64,000 bases of DNA from an uncultured Pirellulaceae bacterium (GCA_938083195.1 CALKCK010000009.1:1-64000), one strand, 5' to 3'. Numbered from the stretch's first letter, positions 6,053 to 43,718 are shown. The notes: a model not told the origin generated them from the sequence alone. A program made the numbers and translations.

Positions 6053-6376
6053 GTGGCTGGTATTCATGAAGTAATTCGAATCCGTATGGAAGCATACGAT
6101 CACTCGATTCTAGATCAGAGTGCTGCGGAGATCGTCGAAACTGCCAAGCGAACTCATTCAGAGGTTCACGGGCCGATTCCGCTTCCGACAAGGATTGAGC
6201 GTTATACAGTGCTGTCAGGGCCCTTTGTAAACAAGAAGGCTCGTCAGCAGTATGAGATACGAACGCACAAGCGTTTGATCGATATTGTCCAGGCGACTGC
6301 CAAGACAATCGAAGCATTGAACAAATTGAGTTTGCCCGCGGGCGTTGAGATCAAGATCAAGGCGTCGACGAAGTAG
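6053..6376 (+). CDS. rpsJ: 30S ribosomal protein S10
   Basis: [26 protein letters not shown]...[35 protein letters not shown]; first gene of the r-protein operon. Confidence 0.97.
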
Positions 6377-6503
6377 ATCGCGGGATCTATTTTATAATCA
6401 AGTAAAGAACATATGGTACGGAAGTCGCGGGGATAAGCTAATCGCGTTTGCTGGTTAGGCTTCTTCGGCGGCAAGTCCAATTGAATAAATAAGGCGAATA
6501 GTC

Positions 6504-7220
6504 ATGACGAAAGGCATACTCGGCCGTAAGGTCGGGATGACGCAGGTGTTCGATCCCGAAACAGGGGTAGCGACGCCGGTCACAGTTGTCGAAGCGGGGC
6601 CCTGCAAGGTGCTTCAGCTGCGTACAGATGAAAGAGATGGTTATTCAGCCGTTCAGTTGGGTTTTGAAGACAAGAAACGTCCGGCCAAGGATCGCCGATC
6701 CCGTCAAAGCCAGGCTGCACGTTCTGAGCGTGGCCACGTGGCAGACATTAAATCAAAGCGAAGCAGCACTCTGGCTGCGAAGGGCGTTGAGTCGCCTGCA
6801 AAAGCTGACTGCGAGCCGAAGAAGTTCATCCGCGAGTTGCGTGGTGAGACTGAGGGTGTCGAAGTCGGTCAGGACATCGGCGTTGGAGTGCTTGAGGAAG
6901 TTGCTCGAGTGGACGTCATTGGTGTCAGCAAAGGTCGTGGATTCGCGGGTGTTATGAAGCGTCATAATTTCAGCGGTCAACGAGCAACGCACGGTGTAAA
7001 GAAGTGTCATCGCCACGCTGGTGGTACCGGCATGAGCGCGTGGCCGAGTCGCACGTTTAAGGGGAAGCGAATGGCCGGGCACTACGGTGCTGCACGGGTT
7101 ACTGTTCGTAATCTTGGACTTCACAAAATCGATGCCGAAAACAATCTGCTACTTATCAAAGGTGCAGTCCCCGGGCCAAACGGTGGCTATCTGGTAATTC
7201 AAGAGACAAACAAGAAGTAG
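6504..7220 (+). CDS. rplC: 50S ribosomal protein L3
   Basis: GILGRKVGMTQVFD...VIGVSKGRGFAGVMKRHNF...GTGMSAWPSRTFKGKRMAGHYG. Confidence 0.97.
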   Translation: MTKGILGRKVGMTQVFDPETGVATPVTVVEAGPCKVLQLRTDERDGYSAVQLGFEDKKRPAKDRRSRQSQAARSERGHVADIKSKRSSTLAAKGVESPAKADCEPKKFIRELRGETEGVEVGQDIGVGVLEEVARVDVIGVSKGRGFAGVMKRHNFSGQRATHGVKKCHRHAGGTGMSAWPSRTFKGKRMAGHYGAARVTVRNLGLHKIDAENNLLLIKGAVPGPNGGYLVIQETNKK

Positions 7221-7233
7221 GTTGACATCAATC

Positions 7234-7884
7234 ATGGCTAGTTTGCCTGTATACGACAGTAGCGGAAAAGAAATCGGCAAGTACGAGATCGATCCGACAG
7301 AAATTGCATCTTCGATCAACAAGCAATTGTTGCACGACGTGGTCGTGATGTACCAAGCCAGTGCCCGGCAAGGTTCTCACAAGACCAAAAGTCGCGCTGA
7401 AGTGGCTGGTAATAAAAAGAAGATGTATCGCCAAAAGGGAACGGGTAACGCCCGTGCTGGAAGTCGCCGGTCGAACATTCGTCGCGGTGGTGGACATGCC
7501 TTTGCGATTCGCAACCGGGATTACTCCTATCGACTGCCGCGAAAGGCAGTTCGGCTTGCAACACGCATGGCGATGGCTGGAAAAATTCAAGATGAGCAAG
7601 TCGTCGTGCTCGACGGTCTTTCGATGGACGCACCGAAAACAAGTGCGATCGCCGGAATGCTGAAAACGATGGGGCTCGAAGGTAAGAGCACGTTGATTAC
7701 CACCGCGGAGCACGCTCCGATGGTATACAAGAGTGCTCGCAACGTGCAGCGTGTTGAGGTTTTGCCTGTGAGCGACCTTAATGCACTGGCCATCCTTAAG
7801 CCGCACCGGGTGCTGGTAACGAAGGAAGCCATGGATCAACTAAAAGAAAAAACAAGTTCGGCAACGGCTGAGGCGAAGGGTTAA
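7234..7884 (+). CDS. rplD: 50S ribosomal protein L4
   Basis: SLPVYDSSGKEIG...KGTGNARAGSRRSNIRRGGGHAF; internal ATG at 7234 is the likely start. Confidence 0.95.
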   Translation: MASLPVYDSSGKEIGKYEIDPTEIASSINKQLLHDVVVMYQASARQGSHKTKSRAEVAGNKKKMYRQKGTGNARAGSRRSNIRRGGGHAFAIRNRDYSYRLPRKAVRLATRMAMAGKIQDEQVVVLDGLSMDAPKTSAIAGMLKTMGLEGKSTLITTAEHAPMVYKSARNVQRVEVLPVSDLNALAILKPHRVLVTKEAMDQLKEKTSSATAEAKG

Positions 7885-7890
7885 TCAACG

Positions 7891-8226
7891 ATGGGCAAAG
7901 TAATTACCAAGCGAAATCGAAAACCGGCGCTTCCCAAGAAGTTGGTTTTGGAACCACATCAGGTCATCCTGAAGCCGACCGTCACCGAAAAGGCGATGTA
8001 TCAGTCGACGGAGCTAAATCAGTACACTTTCAAGGTCAATCCGTTGGCCACGAAAACAGACATCAAGAATGCCATTCAAAAGCTTTTTGAAGTCAGAGTA
8101 ACCGGGATTTCGACGCAGGTCCGAAAGGGCAAGCCACGTCGGTATAAGTTCCGGTTTGGACGAACTAAAGACTGGAAGAAGGCAATTGTTACTCTGCACC
8201 CAGAGGACAAAATCGACTTCTTTTAG
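7891..8226 (+). CDS. rplW: 50S ribosomal protein L23
   Basis: ILKPTVTEKAMY...YTFKVNPLATKTDIKNAIQKLFEVRV...KPRRYKF. Confidence 0.95.
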   Translation: MGKVITKRNRKPALPKKLVLEPHQVILKPTVTEKAMYQSTELNQYTFKVNPLATKTDIKNAIQKLFEVRVTGISTQVRKGKPRRYKFRFGRTKDWKKAIVTLHPEDKIDFF

Positions 8227-33712: not shown

Positions 33713-34357
33713 TTAACGCTTGAGACAATCCATCAGAAGACTGGTTGCTGCGTGAAGCGCCTCGGGTATTTTCCAATTACACTTGTCCCGATCACCCGCC
33801 CGATTGGAGATTCCTCGCACCAAATAAAATGGAACCCCGCAAATTTTTGCCGCAGTGGCTACTGCAAACCCTTCCATTTCTTCTACCGCAGCATTCGGGA
33901 AACGGCGTCGCCTATGGTCTAGGTCACGACTCGTATTGGAAGCCGCACAAACCGTTAGAATTTGACACTGATGATTATCAAAATTCGCGAGAGGCAAAAC
34001 GTCACCGATCAGATCCTGTTCGCCAGTACCGCGCCATTGCATCCACCCCATCTCACCTGCGGTTTGATAGTCTGCTACGCTCCCCGCACCAATCCCAAAG
34101 CACGCGACTTCACTCCCGATAACCGCCGTTCCTGTCAAGATTTCAGGATCATATGCACCTGCAATTCCAACCAATAACACGTTACTCGGTTGATACTGCG
34201 TAATTAATTCCATCGCCTTGGCGGCGGCGACAATTGGCCCAAATCCACATATTTCAACCACCGCCTCAGGATGGGAAATATGCTCAACTACAAACTCGTA
34301 CTCCATCGAAGTTGGCACCAAAATCAGCCACTTTGGTTTTTTCAAGGACGAGCTCAT
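33713..34357 (-). CDS. mqnB: Futalosine hydrolase
   Basis: Nucleoside phosphorylase-like: ILVPTSMEYEFV...VLLVGIAGAYDP...VEEMEGFAVATAAKICGVPFYLVRGISNRAGDRD; next to mqnD. Confidence 0.82.
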   Translation of the reverse strand: MSSSLKKPKWLILVPTSMEYEFVVEHISHPEAVVEICGFGPIVAAAKAMELITQYQPSNVLLVGIAGAYDPEILTGTAVIGSEVACFGIGAGSVADYQTAGEMGWMQWRGTGEQDLIGDVLPLANFDNHQCQILTVCAASNTSRDLDHRRRRFPNAAVEEMEGFAVATAAKICGVPFYLVRGISNRAGDRDKCNWKIPEALHAATSLLMDCLKR

Positions 34358-34470: not shown

Positions 34471-35463
34471 CTACTTCGCGAGGATCTGTTTCAGCACCTG
34501 CTCCGCCCTCTGCCAATTGGAGGCCTCTTTCGCAGCCCAATAACTCATTAACGTCGCGAGACATAACATTACGGCAAAGCCACTTGCCGCCTGCCTGACT
34601 CTGGCTGAAGAAATCTCAAGAAACATTACCAAGCTTCCTTCATTTCCACCTAATAGTAATCCGGTACAGCAAACACCGTAAATAAATGCAATGACTAACA
34701 TTAACACTGAGACGGCTCGCATCGCCGACCAATCGTTGATTTGAAAGAGAAAAATGGCATACATCAAATTCAAAAGACTGATTGCCACTTGCAAGAAAAA
34801 CCAGTTGGGAAGTTCATTTACTTGGGATAAATCGCCCCATGATATCAATTGCGTTAGGACGGGAATCAGATTCAATCCAGCAACGAGAATCAATCCAGCA
34901 GCAAATAACTTTGCTAAAAAAAAACGATCCGTGTTTGCCCGCGTTAATCGCTCTTCCCAATTCTGTTTATCACTCGCCTCAGAAGAATTTCCTTTAATTG
35001 CACTCACAATCGATATGTCGCGGTTTGCAAGGTGAATCGCCCCTCGAGCCGCCTCAAGATCTGCGACCTTTCCTGGTTTCAAATGAGTTCTCTCGTCTAC
35101 TGCTCTCTTTGCTGGAGGCGAGCTCAGTCGAGTTGTTAAAGGCTCCCCCGTCAATTTGACTGAAACAGAGGGTATTTCATGCTTGGTCTCGGACGAATGA
35201 TGCTGCTGCCTTGGTTTTGCAACCGGCAGGCGAGACTCACTAGCGTCCTTTGACAGTGAGCCTTCCAGGTTGGACTCGTCACCATCAAACCCTTCATAAA
35301 TCTCCGCTCGACATTCAACAGGTTGCCCACTGTTCCTCTCGGAATCTGAAATTTCGGGGATACGAATCATGGTTTTACATTCGGGGCATCGCACAATCTT
35401 GCCACTGCGAATCATCGACGCATGCATGATGCATCCCTGAGGGCATCTAACTCGCAATGACAT
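34471..35463 (-). CDS. Hypothetical protein with N-terminal zinc-ribbon-like motif and C-terminal TM segments
   Basis: MSLRVRCPQGCIMHASMIRSGKIVRCPECKTMIRI; about 4 TMs; internal ATG at 35463 removes the overlap with the lipase gene. Confidence 0.7.
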   Translation of the reverse strand: MSLRVRCPQGCIMHASMIRSGKIVRCPECKTMIRIPEISDSERNSGQPVECRAEIYEGFDGDESNLEGSLSKDASESRLPVAKPRQQHHSSETKHEIPSVSVKLTGEPLTTRLSSPPAKRAVDERTHLKPGKVADLEAARGAIHLANRDISIVSAIKGNSSEASDKQNWEERLTRANTDRFFLAKLFAAGLILVAGLNLIPVLTQLISWGDLSQVNELPNWFFLQVAISLLNLMYAIFLFQINDWSAMRAVSVLMLVIAFIYGVCCTGLLLGGNEGSLVMFLEISSARVRQAASGFAVMLCLATLMSYWAAKEASNWQRAEQVLKQILAK

Positions 35464-35602
35464 AACACGCTCATTCAAAAATGATTGATATTGAGACCTT
35501 TTCGCACTGCGGATTATAGCACAACCACTAGTAAGCCATTCAGCGTTTTCTGGCAGATAGGACACAAACCAGAGAACAAAGCAAGCCAAGTCCGGCTTTA
35601 AC

Positions 35603-36490
35603 TTAAAAGCTAGTCGTATTCCATGGACTGTTAGATTTAGCTTCCTCACTTCGGACAATATCGAATACAGCATCCACATACGAAGGGGCTAAATGTGGGC
35701 TTATCGACATCCAATTTGGATTTCCTAATTCAGAAGCTCTTGTCATCAAACGTCTGAAAAACCTTCTCACACCGCGCGGGTTTGCAAGGCGGCCGAATCG
35801 ATCAACACACATTTCAATGCCTTCGTGATCGAAACCTGATCGCATCTCGGGAATCTGCGGCACGGGATCTTGATAATTAACCCACCGAAAATGTTTTAAG
35901 TTTACATGCTTAAGATATTGCCGACTGGCAACTCGTGGACATCCAAATGTATGAAGTTCATTCGGCTGGGATTTTATAAACGAAAGCACGCAACGGGATG
36001 CACAGAGAGTGGCCGCCGCCGCCCCCAAAGAATGTCCGCAAAACCAGAGATTACGATCATTCGACTCCAGCTCCGCTTCAATAGCAGGCCAGATCCCGTC
36101 TGCCATGGCTTTAAAATCACTGATTACCCAACCAGTCGTCTCCGCCATCGTGGAAGGCAGGGTTTGGAGCTCAATCGCCTGATCTAACTCCCTGATCTCT
36201 TTTCCTCGGAAGACCATCACCGCATCGAATTCATTTTGAAACCAGAAAACATCAATAGCACCGCCGCGAATGACCTTCCCGTCGGTAAATCCTAGTTTTC
36301 CCGCGATCGAATTAGCATCTTGAAGAGGAAGATAACTCGCCAACGTCATTTCGCAAAACAATAACGATCTCCGCAGGACCGGCATTTCAGAGATGGGACC
36401 TTGGTGCTGACTCTTAAAAAAAAAGTCTCCCGAAGTTTTCGTATCAAGACTCGCATTCTTGTCTGGAAGCTGAATTTCAGAAGATGCCAT
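35603..36490 (-). CDS. Class 3 lipase-like alpha/beta hydrolase
   Basis: VMVFRGKEIRELDQAIE...LWFCGHSLGAAAATLCASR...TFGCPRVASRQYLKHVNLKHFRWVNYQDPVPQIP. Confidence 0.85.
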   Translation of the reverse strand: MASSEIQLPDKNASLDTKTSGDFFFKSQHQGPISEMPVLRRSLLFCEMTLASYLPLQDANSIAGKLGFTDGKVIRGGAIDVFWFQNEFDAVMVFRGKEIRELDQAIELQTLPSTMAETTGWVISDFKAMADGIWPAIEAELESNDRNLWFCGHSLGAAAATLCASRCVLSFIKSQPNELHTFGCPRVASRQYLKHVNLKHFRWVNYQDPVPQIPEMRSGFDHEGIEMCVDRFGRLANPRGVRRFFRRLMTRASELGNPNWMSISPHLAPSYVDAVFDIVRSEEAKSNSPWNTTSF

Positions 36491-36608: not shown

Positions 36609-38468
36609 TTATTTGGTCTGCATTTGAATAGTGCCTCGCCATCCCTCGGGAGGCTTACCTTGATACTGACCAATAACCTTCTCTAAAAACCTTCTCAATG
36701 AATCTTCCGGGTCCAGTATAGCTAATTCCGTTTCCAATCGCATCCACTCGCCCGCTTGAAACGAATTCAATAGCCGCTTCGAATGAGCTAAATCCTCAAC
36801 GGGAAGTTCATTTGCCGCGCAAACTTGAAAAACGTCGAACGAACCCTCCATTCCAAATGGCTGAAAATTCCCCATCCCACGCACCACAATTTCATCAAAA
36901 AACTCAGGATCCGTCTTTAATGCCTCAAGCGTAAACGCATCGATTAGAATCTTGGAATGGAGCCATTTCGTCATCCCCTCAAGCCGAGAGGCTAAGTTAA
37001 CGACCGGACCAAAGGCAGTCACTTTTACTTGATCACGCGTGCCAATTTTCCCCGCAACGGACTCGCCCGAGGCTACGCCGATCCCGAACTGAAAGCTACG
37101 ACCATCGCGCTTGGTTCGGCCTACTTCGCTTAGCCGAGCGTGGTTATCGACGTGTTGATGGATCGACACCGCCGCTTTAACGGCAGATACGGCATTTTGT
37201 TCGCTACCCGTTGGTGGAATAGGCCACCCCCAAAACCCCATGGCCGAATCTCCATGAAAGTCCCCGATAACTCCTCCAAAATCTAAGATGTTTGATGTTG
37301 TAATCCCCAAAGCCTCGCTGACTCGCGCTAAAAGTTCGAGTAAATCATCCGATAATTCCTCGGATGTTTTCGAAAAACCCCTCAAATCACAAAACAAAAC
37401 CGACAAATCACACTCTCGTGGCTGCAACACCTCTTCCGAATCCAAAACCGAGATAGCCTTCATTACCACGGGAGAAAAGAACGTCCGCAGGCTCGCCTCC
37501 TGCCGCTCAAGTTTCTTTACTAGCAACAAATTTTTAAGCGAAGATCCAACCAGCTCACAAAATTTAAGGTCACCCTGGAAATCTAATTCCTGAGAAACGG
37601 AACTTAAACTGGAATCGCGATCACCACGCTCCTTGCCAGCAACATAGACTCCCCAACCGGGCGTTGCCGCACTTGAAATCGGAGACACAAAAGCCCAATC
37701 GTTTTCATAGTCGATTGTGTACTTTGATTTCCCGCCTTTGCCATGGCTCCAAATATGCAAAACCGACTCATTCGCTTTCAGCGCTTGTTTAACAAGCGTT
37801 TCACTCGGCTGAAATCCACCAGAACTCGTGTCACGGCGATCCCATTGCATAATCTCAATTTCTGAATCAATCAGCCTTTGGGTATCGGCTGAACCTGTAT
37901 CGGCTGAATCTACTACCGAATCGAAAGAATGCCCTGCCGCTGGATCTTGAACCCTCACGATTCCGACCGTCGATGCCGTCGCAATACCCTGCATTAGCGT
38001 GTTAACGATTTGAATCAATAAATTCTCATTGTCGGACGCCGTCGCAATGACTGTTGGCAACCGACTTAGAACATCGATCCGCCGATCAACATCTCGAAAC
38101 GAGACTTTTCGCAAATAATCAGCAGTAAACGTTTTTTGACTAATCGGGTCGGGAGCGTCTAAAGATCCAAATGCTTCTTCAACTGCAATCGTAAATTGAG
38201 TTTTGCCAATGACAAAATGCTCGCCTGCTCCCAATTCAAAACAATCCTCGGACTTACCGTCGTAAAAAACTGGATTCGAAGAACTTTTCAGCTTTTGAAT
38301 GCGGACCTTATCTCCCGCCAAACATAGGGAGATGTGGACACGAGAGATTTGACTATCCCACGGAACACGATAAGACTCTGTTGCCCGCCCAACGAAAATC
38401 TCCCGCGTTGGGATTCGTCGCCGCCATCGAGAACCAACGTCAACTCCCTCTGCAATAAGTTCCAACAT
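36609..38468 (-). CDS. FHA - GAF-like - class III adenylate/guanylate cyclase
   Basis: FHA: IFVGRATESYRVPWDSQISRVHISL; cyclase: LSVLFCDLRGFSKTSEELS...GDFHGDSAMGFWGWP...VNLASRLEGMTK. Confidence 0.88.
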   Translation of the reverse strand: MLELIAEGVDVGSRWRRRIPTREIFVGRATESYRVPWDSQISRVHISLCLAGDKVRIQKLKSSSNPVFYDGKSEDCFELGAGEHFVIGKTQFTIAVEEAFGSLDAPDPISQKTFTADYLRKVSFRDVDRRIDVLSRLPTVIATASDNENLLIQIVNTLMQGIATASTVGIVRVQDPAAGHSFDSVVDSADTGSADTQRLIDSEIEIMQWDRRDTSSGGFQPSETLVKQALKANESVLHIWSHGKGGKSKYTIDYENDWAFVSPISSAATPGWGVYVAGKERGDRDSSLSSVSQELDFQGDLKFCELVGSSLKNLLLVKKLERQEASLRTFFSPVVMKAISVLDSEEVLQPRECDLSVLFCDLRGFSKTSEELSDDLLELLARVSEALGITTSNILDFGGVIGDFHGDSAMGFWGWPIPPTGSEQNAVSAVKAAVSIHQHVDNHARLSEVGRTKRDGRSFQFGIGVASGESVAGKIGTRDQVKVTAFGPVVNLASRLEGMTKWLHSKILIDAFTLEALKTDPEFFDEIVVRGMGNFQPFGMEGSFDVFQVCAANELPVEDLAHSKRLLNSFQAGEWMRLETELAILDPEDSLRRFLEKVIGQYQGKPPEGWRGTIQMQTK

Positions 38469-38537
38469 GTTCTTCCTGCTCCGGTTTGAAGTCCGCGTTA
38501 CTCAAAGCCACTTACCCAGTCAACTCATCGGCGCGAA

Positions 38538-39065
38538 TCACGGACTCGAAAGCACAATCTGATTCAAGAAAAAATAGCAGATTCCCACAATAATCAACCC
38601 TAAAAACACACCCAACAATTGCAATCGACCAGAATGAAACCCTCGCGTTGCATGGTCTAACCGCAAATAAATAAATGACAAACCAAGTAGCGACAGTAAG
38701 CCAAAGAAGACGATTGCCAAGCCAACGATGCGATCTCGAATTAATTGGCGGGTTTCCAACTCTGCTTTGCTCTCAGAACTAACGGGATCCCCACCCTGCT
38801 CGGACGCTTGCAAACTAAGAGTCTCGCCCGAGATTGGACTTGCGCGTTTTATCGGCTCAACAGCAATTGCTGAACTGGCCCACGCCAGACTGAACAGCAT
38901 GCAAACCGAGACCGAGATTCTCACCGAGCGCAAAAGCTTGCCCGAAGACAAATCTTTTTGGGGATTCCTGTTTTTAAGTAATAGGGTTGTCAAATTATTT
39001 CCGATTGAAATTAATCCAGTTTCAAATCCACCTCGAGGCAACCCGTCAATTGTTTGACTCAACAT
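38538..39065 (-). CDS. Hypothetical membrane protein with two C-terminal TMs
   Basis: Signal-like segment and two TMs; start overlaps the end of the upstream kinase gene by 20 nt. Confidence 0.6.
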   Translation of the reverse strand: MLSQTIDGLPRGGFETGLISIGNNLTTLLLKNRNPQKDLSSGKLLRSVRISVSVCMLFSLAWASSAIAVEPIKRASPISGETLSLQASEQGGDPVSSESKAELETRQLIRDRIVGLAIVFFGLLSLLGLSFIYLRLDHATRGFHSGRLQLLGVFLGLIIVGICYFFLNQIVLSSP

Positions 39066-41067
39066 TTTGCAAATTACAAATTTCCATTCGTTTTCGCGTA
39101 TCCAACCAAGGAGCTGATAGTTGCACGGAAAATGAAATCACGACTGCCCAAATACAAACTGCAGTAAAGGGAATTGGCAAAAGGTAACTTAGTAACACGC
39201 CCCAAATCATACAGATTAAAATTGCAGCGATACTTAGCCGGGTCTTGCGAATAGGGTCACACTGCCGCCACCAACGGATTCCTCCAAGGAAGCAGGTGAA
39301 AAAAAACATATAAGCGGCCAAGGGACCCACGCTCGGCATTAAATTCCACCCTTTAGAAAAAGGGCGGGACGTCTCCAGCGACAAGGATGTCAAATCGATA
39401 TAAAACCAGCTGGCCGTAAAGAATGCGGCCAGACCTAATGCCATCCCCAGCCCCATCATTTCCAAATAACGCCATCGCGATTTCGCTGGCCGCCAATCCC
39501 AGCGTTTAGTAACCAATAAGATCGCCCAACAGCCCACAACACTCACCAAAGTCAACCAGGTGTAATTCGCCCAATTCTCGATCGATGAATCCCACGGCCC
39601 ACCGTCAAGAACTCCCGTAACCACCGCAAAGCCAAGTAAATTTAGGACAGTACAACTGAAGGCCGCGATTAGCATCGAACCGATCAGTTCGGTTAACCGA
39701 TCTAACGCGGGGCGTCCTAGCAACCACTGGCGAAGCGGGGGGACTTCTTCGAGTTGTCGAATATGCATAAGCCAACGCGGCGACTGGCCCAGTTTTTTCG
39801 CAAGCGAATATCGCACCAAATAGTAGCCAAAATAAAGACCACCCGCAGACAACATCAACGGCAAGAGCCACTGAGAGTTTTGGATCAGGACAATCCCAGC
39901 GATGATCAACATCACCATCTTGATCGGCGTTGAAAAATTGGCGGTTTCCCACCATAACGTCAATCTTGCTAATCCTGTATGAAGCACCGCCGCAATCGGC
40001 TCATCTCCCCGACTGTTGTCAATTCCATTGCCTAACACGCTGGACTCGAGAGTCGCGGCTGTCTTTAATTCCGACTTATTCGCGACAGAAAATACAGTTT
40101 CTTTCGTACCGGCATGCCGAATGTTATCAATAATTGCGGTCGGCAACTTATCGATCAACTCCGTAGATTGTGTTCGATTTGGCTTTGTTGATTGACGATT
40201 TGCTTTAGCCGAATCAGGTTTGACGATTGAACCGATAGAATGCTGCGAAACAATCGAATCACTCCGCCGAGCTACATCCGGCCAAGGCAGGTCCGCTGCC
40301 ATCTCAGAGATACTACGATATCGATCTTCAGGATCTTTGCGTAACGATTTAGATATTACCATTCGAAAACGAGAAGGCACCACAGAAACATCCGGCTCTG
40401 CCGTCAGATGTTTCATGATAATCTCTTGAGCACTTTCGCCGTCAAAAGGGACTAATCCAGTCGTCAATTCGTACAGGATAATCCCTAGAGCATAGAGATC
40501 TATTTCCTTCCCATAAACGCCTTTACCAATCTCGGGAGCCATGTAATGAAAGGTACCCACCGATTCAGTTTGCCCCGAACGTCGGCTACAGGAAATATAC
40601 TTGGACAGGCCATAATCTCCAATTTTGATCACCTGCTCATGCAAGTCACAAAAGATATTACCTGGCTTTAAATCGCGGTGTACAATTCCGTTCTCATGAA
40701 GATAGGATACCCCCGAAGCAATTGAAGCAAACCAAGATTTAATATCCGCATCAGTCAGTCCATTTTGATTCGCCTCTAGCACATCCCGCAACGATGGACC
40801 GGGAACGTATTCCATCACGACCCAACTCTCGCCTTCTCCTGTGGTTCGGATATCCCATAGAGAGATCAAGTTAACGTGCTTCATATTTAAGCATTGGCGC
40901 ACGCCCCTCAACTCAATATCCAAATTACGCTGGATCTTCTTTAGCGCGACCTCTTTTCCTGCATCATTTAACGCAAAATAAACCTCGCCAAACCCGCCGA
41001 TGCCGATCCCGCGCTTGATGGTGTATCCTTCAAGCGGAGTCGCTCCGCTGGGATAAGTAAACTTCAT
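39046..41067 (-). CDS. Serine/threonine protein kinase with C-terminal multi-TM domain
   Basis: GIGIGGFGEVYFAL; VALKKI; IVHRDLKPGNIFCD; KIGDYGLSK (DYG in place of DFG); several C-terminal TMs. Confidence 0.93.
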   Translation of the reverse strand: MKFTYPSGATPLEGYTIKRGIGIGGFGEVYFALNDAGKEVALKKIQRNLDIELRGVRQCLNMKHVNLISLWDIRTTGEGESWVVMEYVPGPSLRDVLEANQNGLTDADIKSWFASIASGVSYLHENGIVHRDLKPGNIFCDLHEQVIKIGDYGLSKYISCSRRSGQTESVGTFHYMAPEIGKGVYGKEIDLYALGIILYELTTGLVPFDGESAQEIIMKHLTAEPDVSVVPSRFRMVISKSLRKDPEDRYRSISEMAADLPWPDVARRSDSIVSQHSIGSIVKPDSAKANRQSTKPNRTQSTELIDKLPTAIIDNIRHAGTKETVFSVANKSELKTAATLESSVLGNGIDNSRGDEPIAAVLHTGLARLTLWWETANFSTPIKMVMLIIAGIVLIQNSQWLLPLMLSAGGLYFGYYLVRYSLAKKLGQSPRWLMHIRQLEEVPPLRQWLLGRPALDRLTELIGSMLIAAFSCTVLNLLGFAVVTGVLDGGPWDSSIENWANYTWLTLVSVVGCWAILLVTKRWDWRPAKSRWRYLEMMGLGMALGLAAFFTASWFYIDLTSLSLETSRPFSKGWNLMPSVGPLAAYMFFFTCFLGGIRWWRQCDPIRKTRLSIAAILICMIWGVLLSYLLPIPFTAVCIWAVVISFSVQLSAPWLDTRKRMEICNLQNVESNN

Positions 41068-41305
41068 TCATCGCCTCCCAACCATACCGGCTGGCTGCTT
41101 TGATCTAGCAATTAAATTTCACTGCTTTTCTAGCCTAGCCGCAACACGGCCTGTTTGTCTAGGTTTCCATCGGGTTTGGCAATTATTGTGTTCACCAGCT
41201 GGCTCTCACCCGAAAAACCAACCGATTTCCAAACTTCCGGTCACTCCACAAACATCACCGCCGCCAATCCAGAACGTATTGGCCACCCAATCATTTACCA
41301 AAGAA

Positions 41306-42751
41306 CTAAACTGGCTCAAGTGTTAGAGAAAAATCATCACCAACAATTCGGGAATTTAGCTCAATCGCAGTCTCTGCGTTCACCAATTTTCCATCTACCT
41401 CCATCGCCTGCTGCGACCGGCAAAACCACTGCCCCGATCTCTCAAACAACATAAGGTTCTCGCTCCAGGTTGGACAGCAAACATGATTAGATCGATTTGG
41501 ACCTAAAATAATCGAAGTCACAGGGAGAATTACCGCGTCGGCCCAAGGTACAGATCGGTGGCGAGAAACAAAATTAAGTCGTGCCGTTTTACTTAAAGCA
41601 TGTGTTTGCGAGTAGGATAGTTCGACTCCGCCTTCGAAAGCCAGGGTCTGCCCATCTTTCAAAACAACTTTTGAATCCAACTCGATACCGTCGATTGAAA
41701 TATTACCAATGGGCTCCAAGAGATGCCCCCCGTCGACTCGCTCAAGATTGGCATGGTGACTCCGCAAATTACCCTGAATGCCAATGTCCACTCTCGCACT
41801 ATCGATGGCTTGTCCCAATGAATTGACACGATCACCACAAACGAGGTAACCGCCGACGCCGTCTACCCAAAGAAGAAATTTATTGCCAGAAGTTCGATTG
41901 ACCATGGGTCTTATCCTATCGGACATACTTCTCTCGACAACCGCATTTCTTTTCCCAGCCCTCGAACCCCGGTGAGTATTGACTACGCGATCACTTTTCG
42001 CTGCAGAAGAATTCACCTTTGTCGAGTCCATCTGCCTTCTGGTTTTTTTCTTAAGACGTGCGCTGCACTCTTGCCTTGCTTCAAAAGCAATTTGGTTGGT
42101 CGGAGCAATATGCAGAATCTGCTTGCAACTTAGACTGACATCTCCCCATTTACATTGAAGCGCATATGCTTCGAGGTTAGTAACGTGTTTTTTCATCTGC
42201 CGTTGCCGAATCTTGAAAGCTGAAATCCGACTGTCTAAAAAAGGCAAATCTGGGCGAGCGATTTTTGCCTTTTCCAATTCAGCAACAGACTTTTTAAATT
42301 GACCTTTTGCCGCGAAACGGTTTGCCGAATTCAAACACTCAGAAACCATTCTGATATTGTCAAGCCGCCAATCCATTACCCGACGTTGCCCAAGCACTTC
42401 GATGCAATTTAAAGCGTAAATAGGCTCACCACGCACAAGCGAGGCATCCGCAGATTCGATTGTCAGTTCAATTAACTGATTCTTCCATTTGCGAGTCTCT
42501 GCTCCCAATGCCTCTACATTGAATTTTGAGACCTCGTCGAGATCTTTCCAGGCCACGCAAAACTGCCCCATCGACACAGATACTTTCGCCCGTTCCAGTA
42601 AGGCGTCAGCGAGGCTTCGCGCCAGAGTGAGCTTCTTGTTTTCATGGTGTATTTGGCCAAGCTCAAAATGACGTACTGCCTGATCGAGGTCGCCACATTG
42701 GAGCGCCTGCTCGGCAAACTTAGTTTTTAAATTCCACGTCATAAGTCCCAC
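41306..42751 (-). CDS. Helical/TPR-like protein with two degenerate FHA-like domains
   Basis: Repeat helices at N-term; LLWVDGVGGYLVCGDRVNSLG...NLRSHHANLERVDGGHLLEP...SIDGIELDSKVVLKDGQTLAFEGGVELSY; a second related module at C-term. Confidence 0.6.
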   Translation of the reverse strand: MGLMTWNLKTKFAEQALQCGDLDQAVRHFELGQIHHENKKLTLARSLADALLERAKVSVSMGQFCVAWKDLDEVSKFNVEALGAETRKWKNQLIELTIESADASLVRGEPIYALNCIEVLGQRRVMDWRLDNIRMVSECLNSANRFAAKGQFKKSVAELEKAKIARPDLPFLDSRISAFKIRQRQMKKHVTNLEAYALQCKWGDVSLSCKQILHIAPTNQIAFEARQECSARLKKKTRRQMDSTKVNSSAAKSDRVVNTHRGSRAGKRNAVVERSMSDRIRPMVNRTSGNKFLLWVDGVGGYLVCGDRVNSLGQAIDSARVDIGIQGNLRSHHANLERVDGGHLLEPIGNISIDGIELDSKVVLKDGQTLAFEGGVELSYSQTHALSKTARLNFVSRHRSVPWADAVILPVTSIILGPNRSNHVCCPTWSENLMLFERSGQWFCRSQQAMEVDGKLVNAETAIELNSRIVGDDFSLTLEPV

Positions 42752-42881
42752 TTCAATAAAGGCTGTCTCCCGAGCGAGACTTAAACCACAATTAAAAAAC
42801 GGGACAGCTGGCTAGTAAACCTGCTGCCCCGCTTTCATTGATTAACAATTGAACTAACTGAGACATCCAACCCCTGGCGAG

Positions 42882-43718
42882 TTAGTTAACCACCAAGTCC
42901 GCTTCGGTCGATTCGCCAGAAACGTCACCGCTGCCTGATTCTTTTGCTTCGAAGTAGGCATCCATATCGTTCAGCACATCCGAACTTGGAATGACCGAAT
43001 CATCATTTACGGGAATCTGCCCAAAGTACTTAGGAGCGATGTTGTAATACTCCTCATCCGCTGAAATCCGAGCATCGATGTCGTCCAACATCTCACGCGT
43101 CTTTGACAATTGGCTGTTATCGAGCTTAATCTGAGTCGCGGTCGCGATGACCTCGTTCATACGATTACGAGCGGTTAAATTTTCAATTTGCAGTTCCAGT
43201 TCACGTTGTTGCGATTTAGCTTCGCCTAGTTTCAAGTGGGCAGCTGCTAAAGAATCCTTGCGTAGATTTAAAATCTCGCCCTTCTTCTCAAATGTCTTTT
43301 CGGCAGTTTGATAAAGGGTAAACCGATGCCTTAAATCTTGTTTTACACGTGGTAAATCATGAGCCTTCCCTCGCGTATCCACATAGACCTGACCGCCAGA
43401 TTCAACATGTGAGCGAAGTGCCATCATTTCGTCGTAACTTTTTTTCAGCATTTGCTCATGCGACTTAAGATCTGCCGCCAGCCGTTTCACTTTGACTTGC
43501 TCTTTGGAAATTTTGTGAACCATGCCATGTATTTCCGGCCCGATTTCATCGAGCTGGATTTTGGCGGCATCTAACTGGTAAGCGACCGGGACTTGATCCT
43601 GAGCTGCTGTCCTGACCTTGGTTACCGCCGTTTTTGCGTAGGGGATTAACTTCCCACCGAACAGCAATCCGCCAATCACAACAATACCCGCGACCCCAAT
43701 GGTCAATTTTTTAAACAT
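42882..43718 (-). CDS. Membrane-anchored coiled-coil protein
   Basis: N-terminal TM (FKKLTIGVAGIVVIGGLLFGGKL) followed by long coiled coil. Confidence 0.75.
   Translation of the reverse strand: MFKKLTIGVAGIVVIGGLLFGGKLIPYAKTAVTKVRTAAQDQVPVAYQLDAAKIQLDEIGPEIHGMVHKISKEQVKVKRLAADLKSHEQMLKKSYDEMMALRSHVESGGQVYVDTRGKAHDLPRVKQDLRHRFTLYQTAEKTFEKKGEILNLRKDSLAAAHLKLGEAKSQQRELELQIENLTARNRMNEVIATATQIKLDNSQLSKTREMLDDIDARISADEEYYNIAPKYFGQIPVNDDSVIPSSDVLNDMDAYFEAKESGSGDVSGESTEADLVVN

Follow-up and report, generated by a model that had tools for sequence, protein, structure and literature searches.

The minus-strand gene cluster at 36609-43718 of the window (the whole stretch of DNA that was analysed, 64,000 nucleotides long, from the genus Mariniblastus of the Pirellulaceae; Planctomycetota, Planctomycetia, Pirellulales) is probably the junction of two units. 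The genes CC, FHL, KIN and SMP, which in many relatives run on into the gene of an ECF-type sigma factor (SIG), would form a planctomycete kinase-to-ECF-sigma module. The cyclase gene CYC and the three genes that follow it are best explained as an independent cNMP-signalling block, brought adjacent to KIN in the Mariniblastus lineage. The original prediction had joined the kinase and the cyclase in a single relay. The genes of both units, in the order of transcription, are the following.

42882-43718, minus strand: CC, an N-terminally anchored coiled-coil protein that opens the conserved block
41306-42742, minus strand: FHL, with a TPR-like helical domain (residues 3-241), a disordered linker and FHA-like beta modules (288-378, 383-477)
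39046-41067, minus strand: KIN, a Hanks-type Ser/Thr kinase by its motifs, with a DYG signature and a multi-TM C-terminal domain (Pkinase, E 1e-51)
38538-38924, minus strand: SMP, a small signal/TM protein with its start at GTG 38924 and no overlap with KIN
36609-38468, minus strand: CYC, with FHA, GAF-like and class III nucleotidyl cyclase parts; heads the independent block (Guanylate_cyc, 4e-8)
35603-36490, minus strand: class 3 lipase (Lipase_3, 1e-16), a companion of CYC
34471-35679, minus strand: Zn-ribbon-like protein with 3 TM segments (weak zinc-ribbon matches), a companion of CYC
33713-34357, minus strand: PNP_UDP_1 nucleoside phosphorylase-like protein (PNP; Pfam, 2e-18), closing the CYC block

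The co-directional reading frames from CC to the Zn-ribbon/TM gene are all present as originally listed, and the lipase-like hydrolase and the zinc-ribbon membrane protein expected downstream of CYC agree with the profile matches given above, which are weak for the zinc ribbon. Several start codons are placed differently. FHL, first drawn as 41306-42751, probably begins at ATG 42742, the column at which its orthologues start. SMP was first drawn as 38538-39065, with a start overlapping the end of KIN by 20 nt. The window and seven close relatives all have a start codon (ATG, GTG or TTG) in the column that holds GTG 38924, and the position of the upstream ATG is followed immediately by in-frame stops in three relatives (L032, L034 and L037). 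We therefore delimit SMP as 38538-38924, with which the overlap vanishes as a start-site artefact; translational coupling of KIN and SMP through it is ruled out by the conserved start column. For the Zn-ribbon/TM gene, the internal ATG at 35463 appears a more likely start than 35679. Gaps of 139 and 238 nt within the cluster weigh against an assured single operon, and scans of the cluster for promoters and terminators gave no more matches than expected by chance.

Comparison within Pirellulaceae of 20 loci around CYC and 40 around KIN, the latter drawn from 30 genera, shows the kinase block to be the stable part of the cluster. The order CC-FHL-KIN-SMP is kept in nearly all of the 40 KIN loci and recurs in other orders of Planctomycetia; CC opens the block in most of these family loci, as it does in the other orders, and SMP comes after KIN. 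The close relatives of the window (L031-L039) are syntenic from CC through FHL, KIN, SMP, CYC, the lipase and the Zn-ribbon gene to PNP, to the extent of their contigs. Relatives of the C-terminal part of KIN occur in 110 of 119 family genomes and those of FHL in 107 of 119. The membrane domain of KIN is present in 141/159 genomes of the class and in none of the 187 genomes sampled outside Planctomycetia, all 12 matches in the phylum sample lying within the class. The CC-FHL-KIN-SMP module predates the Pirellulaceae. The neighbourhood on which the original prediction relied is thus kept among relatives for these four genes and is not kept for CYC.

The block is subject to some variation. A long form of FHL includes the TPR-like half, which a short form lacks, and in a few genera no FHL was found. 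In one family of the class (f13; L204, L206, L208), KIN and SIG are adjacent or close, and CC and FHL were not found; this reduction, in which mostly KIN and SIG are kept, the genomes lacking an FHL match and the weak alignment of SMP all weigh against the KIN-SIG module reading. One locus (L142, 8784-11546, plus strand) carries a natural fusion of KIN and SMP in a single reading frame of 920 aa, which supports a physical link between the kinase and SMP. A multi-TM transporter-like gene (cluster c6, EamA-like by eye) lies directly upstream of CC in L157, L159-L162, L167 and L172.

The motifs of KIN identify it as a Hanks-type Ser/Thr kinase. Among 51 orthologues, HRD and DYG (for DFG) are found in all, PE in 50 and the catalytic Lys motif in 46. 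By simple hydropathy, the KIN of the window has 4 TM segments and its orthologues have 3-8. CC, described as a membrane-anchored coiled-coil protein, has a single TM segment at 7-25 and a mean column identity of 55% across genera. Pfam searches with CC and with the membrane part of KIN returned merely scattered single-member matches and no domain name.

The AF2 model of FHL (mean pLDDT 88) consists of 11 helices, a disordered linker and two beta modules, and so reproduces the helical-repeat protein with two degenerate FHA-like modules of the original description. Its Foldseek neighbours include EmbR, TPR proteins and the FHA domains of Ki67 (TMt 0.60), KIF13B and EssC; the FHA-fold matches were obtained with the whole protein and could belong to either of the two modules. 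Pfam FHA matches 20 of 46 FHL homologues, the FHL of the window not being among them. Together, the model and the matches support TPR-like helices combined with an FHA beta-sandwich fold. EmbR of Mycobacterium tuberculosis is a partner in Ser/Thr kinase signalling. It provides the best Foldseek match to FHL (PDB 2ff4, E 2.7e-6) and unites a helical part with an FHA fold as FHL does, at a low global TM-score of 0.17-0.21. FHL differs from it by its two FHA-like modules and a degenerate phosphothreonine site, and appears to lack the winged-helix DNA-binding domain of EmbR, since no beta strands are modelled within its helical part or ahead of it. At the phosphothreonine site the FHL homologues display Arg in 5/46, Ser in 17/46 and His in 30/46, and the FHL of the window has GQ in place of the FHA Gly-Arg and a shifted SHH. 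With the FHA Arg missing in 41 of 46 homologues, simple phosphothreonine reading is an unlikely function for FHL. FHL might instead be a scaffold with a borrowed FHA fold, a subset of its homologues perhaps still reading phosphate.

The partner that accompanies the kinase block most widely is SIG. In 20 of the 40 family loci it is the gene right after SMP, with the same orientation. It lies within 5 kb of KIN in 69/108 family genomes, always downstream and on the same strand, and in 76/118 genomes of the class outside Pirellulaceae; these counts, like those for KIN and CYC, are raw, taken without regard to shared ancestry, and are lower bounds owing to contig breaks. Several other families and orders of Planctomycetia share the gene order CC-FHL-KIN-SMP-SIG. 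Profile searches detect SIG in 113 of 119 family genomes, including that of the window, as a single copy in all but one, and in 149 of 159 class genomes. KIN and SIG co-occur with a Fisher p of 1.4e-4, phylogeny being ignored. The genome of the window itself carries SIG on another contig, C45, unlinked from the cluster, which weighs against the KIN-SIG reading.

At that locus (L217, G000 C45:8000-21000), SIG occupies positions 6247-6885 (minus strand) and is neighboured at 7121-7948 (minus strand) by c1, a canonical FHA-domain gene (Pfam FHA, 1.9e-15). The pairing of SIG with c1 is seen in the window's genome and in seven others from the same group of genera, where usually tig and clpP come next. 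Relatives of c1 occur throughout the family, and in several genera are distant from SIG (e.g. in G097).

SIG is distinguished by the linker between its sigma2 and sigma4 regions. In the family the linker carries the motif R-x-A-S-S-I/L-x-R-S-x-E, with R127, S130, R134 and E137 retained in 18/18 sequences and S131 and S135 in 17/18. The Ser-rich motif is recognisable in other orders of Planctomycetia and is absent from five unrelated ECFs of the same loci. Region 2.2 keeps an acidic [S/A]ED, with E60 and D61 in all 18 sequences and Ser at position 59 in 14. NCBIfam assigns SIG, above the cut-off, to the generic sigma70-ECF superfamily alone.

Control of ECF sigma factors by kinases is established for EcfP/PknT of Vibrio parahaemolyticus and EcfK/PknS of Xanthomonas citri, both of group ECF43 (PMC13147305; PMC8999054). 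PknS phosphorylates EcfK in sigma2 (T51) and in the sigma2-sigma4 linker, in which one residue is critical; the linker residue that serves as precedent is T106 (PMC13147305). The KIN-SIG module resembles ECF43 in the placement of a Hanks-type kinase gene beside the ECF gene, in the absence of a recognised anti-sigma factor and in the Ser/Thr of the linker, represented in SIG by S130, S131 and S135. It differs in the three additional conserved genes (CC, FHL and SMP), in the multi-TM C-terminal domain of KIN and in its restriction to Planctomycetia among the genomes sampled. A further difference lies in region 2.2, where SIG keeps the acidic ED and ECF43 has lost DAED. Membership of SIG in ECF43 is ruled out, since that group is defined by the loss of the acidic residues that SIG still has. 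Unlike in ECF43, phosphorylation would be superfluous for restoring the DAED charge because E60 and D61 are invariant, a point against the KIN-SIG reading. Planctomycete ECF groups encoded beside kinases are predicted, from synteny alone, to be regulated by phosphorylation (PMC8999054). Among the groups with planctomycete representatives for which such control by a neighbouring Ser/Thr kinase is predicted are ECF59, ECF61, ECF62 and ECF217 (PMC8999054), and SIG may belong to one of these.

The genes, their order and distribution, and the folds and motifs of the proteins are observed; from them we infer how the module may operate, from sensing and phosphotransfer to a regulon, and which parts CC, FHL and SMP may play in it. 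The kinase block would sense a condition of the envelope or membrane, SMP serving as the envelope-facing subunit of the membrane kinase, CC as a coiled-coil organiser and FHL as a TPR/FHA-fold scaffold for KIN. KIN would phosphorylate SIG, with the Ser residues of the linker motif as the likely sites; the linker is proposed as the target because of the EcfP/PknT and EcfK/PknS precedents and the motif itself. Phosphorylated SIG would engage RNA polymerase in an altered way, and its regulon would be switched on. Gene activation by phosphorylation is the likely job of the module because KIN and its companions travel with SIG and not with CYC.

The distribution of CYC is of a different kind. Relatives of CYC occur in 117/119 family genomes and 91/159 class genomes. 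In Pirellulaceae, CYC and KIN are at most 10 kb apart in 5 of 106 genomes, which belong to Mariniblastus and one other genus, and none of the 67 class genomes outside the family has the pair within 12 kb. KIN is present without a CYC match (E <= 1e-60) in 55 of the 159 class genomes. The order CYC-Lip3-ZnRib-PNP is seen in L057, L072 and L150, as would befit a block in its own right. In genus g19 (G018, contig C10; G080, C1; G107, C3), some 20 kb separate CYC from KIN and SIG, less than in most genera, and this proximity could be residual linkage or chance.

The AF2 model of CYC displays an FHA domain, an alpha-beta GAF-like middle and a class III domain, and the N-terminus has an FHA-like profile match. 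Of the FHA-GAF-like-class III architecture originally assigned to it, the FHA and cyclase parts are upheld; the secondary structure of the middle is compatible with GAF in the model, with no profile match and with top Foldseek matches driven by the cyclase domain. The modelled catalytic fold is clearly that of a class III cyclase, shared with CyaB of P. aeruginosa, CyaC of Spirulina and Cya2 of Synechocystis (TM-score to target about 0.8-0.9). CYC has in common with the class III cyclases both metal-binding Asp residues (D361, D407) and the transition-state residues N491 and R495, all in 40/40 sequences, and with CyaB a Thr at the second substrate position. It differs in its FHA and GAF-like input and at the purine-selecting position, where residue 403 is Asp in 40/40, whereas CyaB has Lys there and the guanylyl cyclase Cya2 has Glu; the adenine-selecting Lys of class III adenylyl cyclases is found in 0/40. 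Asp403 at this position leaves the choice of substrate, and hence the product, uncertain from sequence. The phosphothreonine site of the FHA domain (G27, R28, S42, H45, N65) is intact in 40/40. Of the two FHA-like phosphothreonine readers first proposed, CYC therefore stands and FHL falls away, the site being kept in the FHA domain of CYC alone.

The conserved FHA site speaks for the relay in a form confined to Mariniblastus and its relatives, in which KIN would phosphorylate FHL, itself or both, and the FHA domain of CYC would dock on the phosphothreonine, leading to production of a cyclic nucleotide. In genus g1, KIN, SMP and CYC remain adjacent even in a genome with no FHL match (G067), the full eight-gene order recurs in G095 (L150) from another genus, and SIG has left the KIN locus in the Mariniblastus clade. 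With SIG gone and CYC alongside, a rewired path from kinase to cyclase, or some cross-talk between them, is possible in that lineage. However, the few adjacent pairs come from two genera and probably from one rearrangement, and the FHA site is equally conserved where CYC is distant from KIN, so that its phospho-partner need not be KIN. We consider the lineage-specific relay unlikely; as a conserved system it is ruled out by the linkage counts and by the many genomes carrying KIN without a CYC match. There is likewise a low probability that the five-gene module, with SIG phosphorylated in its linker, is a Planctomycetia-specific core regulator of the class and that the Mariniblastus lineage has swapped its sigma output for the neighbouring FHA-cyclase, whose purine-selecting residue is invariantly acidic.

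Planctomycetes are rich in kinases and ECFs, and SIG persists apart from KIN, the two being unlinked at 5 kb in 39/108 family genomes, partly through contig breaks. The cluster might accordingly consist of two independent signalling stretches on a shared strand, with KIN and SIG answering different signals and their linkage being an old gene order. Against this, the linkage, strand and order of KIN and SIG are kept across several orders, the two genes are mostly single-copy and co-occurring, and SIG has its distinctive class-wide Ser linker; independence seems improbable to us. It is less probable still that KIN mainly targets another protein, for example CC/FHL as a membrane scaffold in morphology or division, or c1, and that SIG is controlled indirectly via that adaptor: CC is well conserved though no enzyme and SIG is paired with the canonical FHA protein in the window's clade, but c1 is not a constant partner of SIG, as its relatives stand apart from SIG in other genera.

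The proposed kinase-to-ECF-sigma module would fall under known kinase-linked control of ECF sigma factors, with the relay being at most an addition in the Mariniblastus lineage. CYC beside KIN looks like a local arrival, and the case illustrates that a single-genome reading can take a local neighbour for the output of a pathway. A separate question raised by CYC is which cyclic nucleotide planctomycete FHA-cyclases produce: cAMP, cGMP or both. The wiring of planctomycete kinases to ECF sigma factors is largely inferred, most kinase-ECF pairs being predictions from synteny. A class-wide, mostly single-copy module of fixed order, with candidate phosphosites in the sigma factor linker, would offer a focused test case for the path from membrane sensing to transcription.
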